From: Myxococcota bacterium
GTDB taxonomy: Bacteria > Myxococcota_A > Polyangia > Polyangiales > Houyiibacteriaceae
Direction of reading: 5' to 3'
NCBI GenBank assembly: GCA_028284955.1
Contig: JANQQS010000093.1
Span: forward strand, 1 to 64,000
Length of the DNA stretch: 64,000 nucleotides
In this document: positions 1 through 24,489 of the stretch, piece after piece
Layout: each line of letters opens with the position of its first letter
Numbering within the stretch: the stretch's first letter is position 1
Made by a program: the position numbers and the translations under genes
The notes under the pieces: generated by a model
Seen by the model: the letters and a program-made list of their open reading frames with translations, nothing else
Told to the model about the DNA's origin: nothing
The model's database searches: none

Positions 1-10
1 TCTGCATCCG

Positions 11-70
11 CTCCTGATGTTCGGGTTGAGGGCCAAGACGGGGCGTGACCCTCAACCCAAACATCAGGAG
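11..70 (+). promoter_or_regulatory. 22-bp inverted repeat enclosing an RBS
   Basis: The arms at 11-32 and 49-70 are complementary over 22 positions with one mismatch (position 22), around a 16-nt loop. The right arm contains the CAGGAG that serves as Shine-Dalgarno for the ATG at 78. In RNA the ribosome-binding site would therefore be buried in a long stem, a layout that would silence translation unless the stem is opened or cleaved. The same palindrome could instead be a DNA-level site such as a cruciform or transposase/recombinase target. The arms are seen in the sequence; the function is inferred. Confidence 0.8.
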
Positions 71-77
71 CTCTACG

Positions 78-380
78 ATGAAGTTTCATGCCCTCGAGCG
101 TTCTCTTCAAGCCATCCGACACCTGAGGCCAATTGTCGCGACGGTCAGTCGATACGACCCAAGTCTCGCGAATCAACTACGCACTGCTGCTTCCTCGATC
201 GCCCTCAATCTTTCCGAAGCCAATGGGCGTACCGGGCGAGACCGTACGCATCTATTCAGAGTCGCTCTTGGAAGCGCCAAGGAAAGTCATACCGCGGTGT
301 CGCTCGCGGTCGCCTGGGGCTACCTCCAGGAAGACGAGGCAAAGTCCGTATTGGAGCATCTCGACGCTCTGTGGCCATGA
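78..380 (+). CDS. four-helix bundle protein (S23 / 23S rRNA intervening-sequence protein family)
   Basis: A 100-residue all-helical protein with the family pattern: the block QLRTAASSIALNLSEA, followed by a segment with HLFRVALGSAKES. The family forms small pentameric four-helix bundles. It was first seen inside 23S rRNA intervening sequences and is related to the Avd accessory protein of diversity-generating retroelements; its biochemical role is unknown. I chose the ATG at 78 over the upstream ATG at 45 because CAGGAG sits 7 nt before it and family homology starts there. No rRNA and no reverse transcriptase lie next to it here. The unusual context is the long hairpin over its RBS and the hexamer tract downstream. 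Confidence 0.85.
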   Translation: MKFHALERSLQAIRHLRPIVATVSRYDPSLANQLRTAASSIALNLSEANGRTGRDRTHLFRVALGSAKESHTAVSLAVAWGYLQEDEAKSVLEHLDALWP

Positions 381-415
381 CGTGGCGCCTCGCCGGTCGG
401 TAGCAAAGTCCGCCT

Positions 416-442
416 GCGGAAAGGCTCCGAAGGCTTTTCCGC
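416..442 (+). terminator. stem-loop after the four-helix bundle gene
   Basis: An 11-bp stem (416-426 with 432-442, two G-U pairs) and a 5-nt loop lie 36 nt after the stop codon. There is no T-tract, so it may be a 3'-end-stabilising hairpin or part of the repeat unit rather than a classical terminator. Confidence 0.45.
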
Positions 443-463
443 CCCAAACAAAAGGAACCCAAT

Positions 464-661
464 ATGACCCGCAGCCCCCGGACCCGAAACACCGCCAGCC
501 ACCCCGCGACCAAAGCCCCTCCCGACCCCAAACCCGCCGCCTCTCCAGATCCAGACCCCGACCCCGATGCCCCTCCCGATCCCGATCCTCACCCCGTTCC
601 CACTGCGAGTAAGAGGCTCACGATCAACGCAAGCAGGCACTGCTTGACCTATCTAGTCTGA
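464..661 (+). CDS. possible 65-residue Asp/Pro-rich ORF over the hexamer tract
   Basis: An ATG at 464 has AAAGGA about 10 nt upstream. The frame reads mostly Asp-Pro and Ala-Pro dipeptides because the underlying DNA is a degenerate hexamer repeat. Repeat DNA of this composition opens several frames at once, including the opposite strand (a Gly-Val/Gly-Ile-rich reading). Translation is therefore doubtful. I list it only because the RBS is acceptable and it follows the four-helix bundle gene directly. Confidence 0.2.
   Translation: MTRSPRTRNTASHPATKAPPDPKPAASPDPDPDPDAPPDPDPHPVPTASKRLTINASRHCLTYLV
515..600. repeat. degenerate hexanucleotide tract, locus 1
   Basis: A run of imperfect 6-bp units of the type GAYCCN (Asp-Pro when read on the plus strand) starts about 135 nt after the four-helix bundle gene. 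The same unit family recurs at 24.5-24.85 kb and 62.1-62.3 kb. From 601 to the imelysin stop at 711 I see nothing else. Confidence 0.7.
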
Positions 662-6791: not shown

Positions 6792-6845
6792 CACCGCGGC
6801 ATATTGTCGCGTCTCGATCATCGCGCGCGACAATATGCCGCGGTG
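6792..6845. promoter_or_regulatory. perfect 20-bp inverted repeat between divergent genes
   Basis: Arms 6792-6811 and 6826-6845 are exact reverse complements (CACCGCGGCATATTGTCGCG), separated by 14 nt. It lies 35 nt upstream of the outer-membrane protein start and 73 nt upstream of the mbnP ATG. Position and perfection suggest an operator for a dimeric regulator serving both genes, or two divergent identical sites. A hairpin in either transcript leader is the alternative. Confidence 0.75.
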
Positions 6846-24463: not shown

Positions 24464-24489
24464 CCACTGCTTTAGGACTAGAGCAGTGG
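24464..24489. repeat. 8-bp inverted repeat at the edge of the hexamer tract
   Basis: CCACTGCT at 24464-24471 and AGCAGTGG at 24482-24489 are exact reverse complements around a 10-nt loop, just before the hexamer tract begins. It may bound the repeat unit. Confidence 0.5.

Follow-up and report, generated by a model that had tools for sequence, protein, structure and literature searches.

An S23/IVP-like gene with a ribosome-site hairpin in a Myxococcota bacterium forms the left half of a damaged two-gene, two-palindrome element

Proteins of the S23/IVP family are widespread and, to our knowledge, have remained without a function in the record since their discovery in rRNA intervening sequences. 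The intervening sequence (IVS) in the 23S rRNA of Coxiella burnetii is a selfish element with an S23p ORF, long complementary sequences and a 28-bp stem, and RNase III cuts it at a region resembling a Shine-Dalgarno (SD) site (PMC4990558). The same protein family, PF05635, has been described as Avd-like (PMC10053308). REP sequences form hairpins in DNA, carry a guide of four nucleotides and are moved by TnpA-REP (PMC6006769). ISPpu9 is an insertion sequence whose transposase has a structured leader (PMC8450116).

The element described here, a damaged copy of which opens the window (the whole stretch of 64,000 nucleotides that was analysed), resembles each of these systems in part. With the 23S rRNA IVS it has in common a PF05635 protein and long stems; however, the IVS occupies helix 45 of 23S rRNA, carries one ORF in one stem-loop and has decaying ORFs, whereas the element is intergenic and possesses two conserved convergent genes, a palindrome upstream of each, and hexamer arrays. 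With Avd of the diversity-generating retroelements (DGRs) it shares the four-helix fold, but it encodes two paralogues, and no PF00078 reverse transcriptase was found in the host genome (96.6% complete), the sister-genus members tested having none or a single one. For this lack in the host genome, both a DGR and RNA-mediated mobility were rejected. Multi-copy intergenic palindromes and a tetranucleotide target (here TAG/CTAG) are reminiscent of REP/BIME sequences with TnpA-REP (RAYT) and of IS200/IS605; in contrast to these, the element has arms of 22-31 bp, mostly larger loops, no GTAG head, and conserved genes of its own. An assignment to IS200/IS605 or RAYT/REP was rejected, as no Y1 gene is linked and no GTAG/GTGG guide stands at the hairpin foot. 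The feet read CATCC-GCTCC or TC-GTGAT, and TAG/CTAG is found farther out, past the arrays, where the element ends. Finally, a 5' leader structure that would govern the translation start of an element gene recalls ISPpu9, IS10 and IS50, from which the element differs in having no transposase gene, and in having two genes and two palindromes. Searches for a known RNA family returned sub-threshold matches only, mostly to miRNA-type hairpins, PADLOC gave no match to a known defence gene, and a literature search of open-licence papers brought up no account of an element of this kind.

The hairpin, gene A and the full element

The first palindrome of the window is an inverted repeat (10-35/46-71) of 92% complementarity. 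An earlier note on this DNA had described a hairpin with 22-nt arms and a single mismatch; the hairpin and the mismatch stand, while the best core is in fact 23 bp long. The SD was correctly placed by that note in the outer end of the stem just before the ATG at 78, which starts 7 nt after the palindrome and the SD (Table 1). Folding of window positions 1-140 as RNA yields -55.7 kcal/mol, compared with -40.2 for shuffled sequences (z -3.96; 0 of 200 shuffles as low), and in a tiled scan of the 64-kb window this palindrome is joint best. Another palindrome in the window (6792-6845), with perfect 20-bp arms (caccgcggcatattgtcgcg / cgcgacaatatgccgcggtg), precedes by approximately 74 nt what may be a start codon (ATG, 6919), and no resemblance to the element was noticed.

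The ORF behind the hairpin, gene A, matches PF05635 (E 1e-12) and TIGR02436 'four helix bundle protein', its scores of 47-64 bits exceeding the curated cut-offs of 33.8 and 24. The AlphaFold model of its protein consists of four helices (pLDDT 92.8) and is closest to the S23-family structures 2rld and 2gsc (TM ~0.8), followed by Avd of DGRs. The S23-like four-helix-bundle family proposed in the earlier note is therefore upheld, although the ORF is not intact: one base is missing near position 375, and intact copies continue to the equivalent of a stop at 401-403.

The full element, repeated many times in the genomes of certain uncultured myxobacteria and represented most clearly in the host genome by the copy on contig C200 (locus L005), spans about 1.1 kb. 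It opens with an array of degenerate hexamers, continues through palindrome 1 and gene A to a terminator-like stem, and then comprises the convergent gene B, palindrome 2, a second hexamer array, and the right end. Both genes encode S23/IVP-like four-helix-bundle proteins, and no transposase is recognisable. Palindrome 2, with arms of about 30 nt, contains the ribosome site and start of gene B, and both SD sites of the full copy sit in stems. A scan of the full-copy palindromes against the sigma-70 consensus, the only one tried, recognised no internal promoter. Window positions 1-442 align to positions 119-562 of the full element and 442-646 to 978-1176, the start of the contig (C155), which is also the start of the window, truncating the copy on its left. 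The hairpin and gene are thus the left half of a degraded element copy in which gene A is frameshifted and gene B is lost.

Table 1. Element features in the window
Feature	Position	Strand	Remarks
Palindrome 1	10..71	+	Core arms 10-32 and 49-71; loop 33-48 (ccaagacggggcgtga); mismatch C22/A59
Shine-Dalgarno CAGGAG	65..70	+	Within 3' arm of palindrome 1; AAGGAG at the matching place in relatives
Gene A, S23/IVP-like four-helix-bundle protein	78..380	+	Frameshifted; intact frame would end at stop 401-403
Terminator-like stem remnant	411..442	.	Separates the two genes where the element is complete; from alignment to the full element
Deletion junction	442..443	.	About 415 bp gone: gene B and half of palindrome 2
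Palindrome 2, outer half-arm	443..469	.	5' of the lost gene B; from comparison with a full copy
Right-hand degenerate hexamer array	494..612	.	GAYNCN-like units; from comparison with a full copy; array limits vague
Element right end (GAGGCTCACGATCAACGCAAGCAGGCACTGCT)	613..646	.	Matches right ends of other copies, often then CTA(G)

Copies, insertion sites and selection on the proteins

A search of the host genome (6.07 Mb in 223 contigs) with window positions 1-410 produced 45 matches. Palindrome 1 is present in at least 17 places, many of them at contig ends, the points at which the assembly broke, and the genome contains 15 PF05635 matches. When element DNA of the host genome was compared with the relatives by nucleotide search, only hexamer repeats matched outside the host genome. 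Among 116 related genomes, 66 have genes of the PF05635 family, frequently arranged as convergent pairs no more than about 100 bp apart. Within the same family, a sister genus whose records are Myxococcales and Polyangiaceae MAGs (CP070713 and JAOTYL01 among them) carries the gene pair in many copies, and nearly all of its full copies have a palindrome before each gene, with an AAGGAG-type SD in the 3' arm. Most arms in these stems measure 22-31 nt, with scores of 20-31, against a mean of 8 and a 95% point of 16.5 for random pieces of the same loci. The recurrence of the hairpin, with covariation, before homologous genes, which the earlier note had suggested looking for, is hence found in the sister genus; palindromes missing from the close homologues and occurring unlinked elsewhere were not the pattern observed.

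In another genus (genome G008) the gene pair is preceded by leader hairpins that are long but imperfect (z -5.5 and -2.7) and differ in form, and the SD of gene A falls outside the main stem. Many other PF05635 genes are preceded by no such hairpin; the SD hairpin is consequently a trait of this element and not of S23-like genes generally. For the convergent S23 pair of Sorangium cellulosum So ce26 (L269, 3992-4682), no significant hairpin was found before the gene tested; this pair, which has no SD-bearing palindromes, may represent an older form or a relic. In genome G024, one element copy (L170, ~2090-2165) has as its neighbours a masked stretch and a sequence resembling a tRNA.

One element of genome G001 (L161) is absent at the orthologous site in ten congeners, whose flanking convergent genes touch or overlap at their stop codons. 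The occupied site reads GAGTAG(element)CTAGCG, so that neither flanking gene loses its stop, and the TAG/CTAG target seems to have been duplicated. This duplication is clear at the one G001 site only, while CTA(G)/TAG is found at many, not all, of the host-genome ends. The equivalent site in the congener G012 carries a scar with a few hexamers, and the core of a second G001 element (L162) is missing from G012. Dispersed copies and empty target sites, by which transposable elements are generally recognised, are thus both in evidence. Furthermore, in the tree of either gene the copies group according to the genome that holds them, with G001 monophyletic in both trees, which indicates that the two genes travel together and amplify within genomes. 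Multiple copies, empty sites, amplification within genomes and the presence of two palindromes all support one of the possibilities raised in the earlier note, that of a mobile unit ending in a palindrome. The copies that were read are flanked by protein genes and intergenic DNA and sit behind gene ends; since these are the flanks, and a full-copy locus gave no rRNA family match, a 23S rRNA IVS is ruled out. Viral spread was rejected, since the search for it yielded a single distant viral contig.

Pairwise dN/dS between copies within a genome is 0.04-0.15 for both genes (six genomes). Changes unique to single copies give an omega of 0.12-0.42 in unmixed, cleanly classified sets; one further set, at 0.68, includes a misclassified gene. 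Both genes are under purifying selection, somewhat relaxed once a copy has inserted, and the proteins are of importance either for the element or for its host.

Pairing in the stems and the role of the palindromes

Standard pairs make up 97% of the paired cells in 33 gene B palindromes, and 91 cells are changed on both sides, compared with 23.5 in shuffles; slid controls of the same palindromes are 43-57% paired. Some stem positions show all four pair types. RNAalifold, when applied to a mixed gene A alignment, returned a poor structure because stem lengths differ between the genera, and a per-hairpin analysis was employed instead. An mRNA helix under selection is expected to show G.U above A.C. 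On the mRNA strand of all hairpins, A.C is found in 26 and G.U in 6 distinct contexts, these being partly non-independent, and the gene B palindromes contain only one cell changed on one side (G.U) against the 91 double changes. Any one of the following would account for the scarcity of G.U: a palindrome maintained at the DNA level, the antisense strand, stronger constraint on the 3' arm, or template switching between the arms. The abundant double changes show a conserved structure, kept up by compensatory change; with G.U nearly absent, selection on the mRNA hairpin is no more than possible.

This bears on whether the four-helix protein represses its own translation by binding the leader at the loop motif CGGGGTGAG. 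The SD lies within the stem in the sister genus as well as in the window genome. The loops of the gene A hairpins keep a related motif in two genera while their stems vary; it reads GGGGTGAG, with GGGGCGTGA as its form in the window genome, which makes the loop a candidate protein-binding site. S23 proteins are toroidal pentamers (PMC4990558), and Avd, to which the model is structurally matched (4dwl, 8ub7), acts in the DGR ribonucleoprotein. However, the near-absence of G.U on the mRNA strand, the position of the gene A SD outside the main stem in G008, and the stability of a 23-31 bp stem, which is very high for a switch, lead us to regard such a regulator as unlikely. A leader peptide from an in-frame GTG in the loop was also considered and rejected, the GTG being out of frame in gene B of the sister genus.

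The near-perfect arms and the double changes, almost without one-sided G.U intermediates, could also arise from quasi-palindrome template switching, in which one arm is repaired from the other and compensation accrues without selection on structure. Such mutational persistence does not account for the position of the palindromes before genes, their SD content or the loop motif kept across two genera, and the stems of G008 are long yet imperfect and uncorrected; we judge it very improbable as the explanation.

It is probable, in our assessment, that the hairpin and gene derive from a degraded transposon-like element whose palindromes serve both as sites of mobility and as a lock against read-through. 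As cis sites of mobility, the palindromes would be recognised in the form of DNA or of a single-stranded hairpin; the recognising agents would be either the four-helix proteins, together with a nuclease or transposase of the host, or a trans-acting transposase. Since each palindrome also holds the SD, a transcript entering from a neighbouring gene would fold the ribosome site shut, as is suggested by analogy with insertion sequences, and only transcripts initiated within the palindrome would yield protein. Read-through is likely because the copies are located behind gene ends. The insertion sequences IS10 and IS50 guard themselves against read-through transcription, and on this analogy the hairpin is more likely to be a lock against outside transcription than a switch operated by a metabolite or a protein. 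A dedicated translational switch or autoregulation, both suggested by the earlier note, is no more than possible.

Mobility enzymes, shared repeat ends and implications

No Y1 transposase is encoded within the element, and neither G001 nor G012 gave a match; the host genome contains one weak, unlinked ORF. This IS200-like ORF (L315; G000:C158:15000-18500, frame ~1600-2514) has an HYH motif and may be a RAYT serving short repeats. The element ends in the host genome, CTAG-AGCAGTG, are common to an abundant short palindromic repeat. Indeed, the end motif TAGAGCAGTG has 153 exact occurrences in the host genome (among them window positions 24479 and 24962), against 8 for a reversed control, and these are often arranged in inverted pairs about 117-127 bp apart with CTAG-type flanks. 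As its ends are the same as those of this repeat, an enzyme acting in trans is possible, and the element could be a passenger of the short-repeat machinery. These shared ends and the lack of an encoded mobility enzyme weigh against the reading favoured above, as do the vague array limits, the single clear CTAG duplication and the failure to recognise an internal promoter with the sigma-70 consensus.

According to this explanation, a coding-capable passenger is moved in trans by a REP- or MITE-like machinery (e.g. Y1/RAYT), and its proteins serve another role. The shared ends, the Y1-like ORF with its HYH motif, and the precedent of REP hairpins moved by TnpA-REP are all consistent with it. Conversely, two reading frames kept at a dN/dS of about 0.1 are unexpected for a mere passenger, G001 is without a Y1 match despite its many copies, and no ends in common with a short repeat were seen among the sister-genus copies. 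We consider this explanation possible, albeit doubtful. Somewhat less probable still, and rather unlikely on the whole, is an autonomous class of mobile element in which two S23/Avd-like four-helix bundles recognise the paired palindromes and recruit host enzymes.

The element is a carrier of the S23/IVP protein family, and would constitute a new class if the four-helix proteins drive its movement. If it is autonomous, free S23/IVP genes, and perhaps the rRNA intervening sequences, would be relics of mobility genes. There may be a link among rRNA intervening sequences, the Avd proteins of DGRs and intergenic palindromic repeats. In this natural system, two S23/IVP proteins are the sole proteins of a spreading element, are conserved by selection and are each tied to a palindrome. 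The element thereby renders the function of the S23/IVP family testable, in terms of whether these proteins bind the palindromes and whether they move the element.
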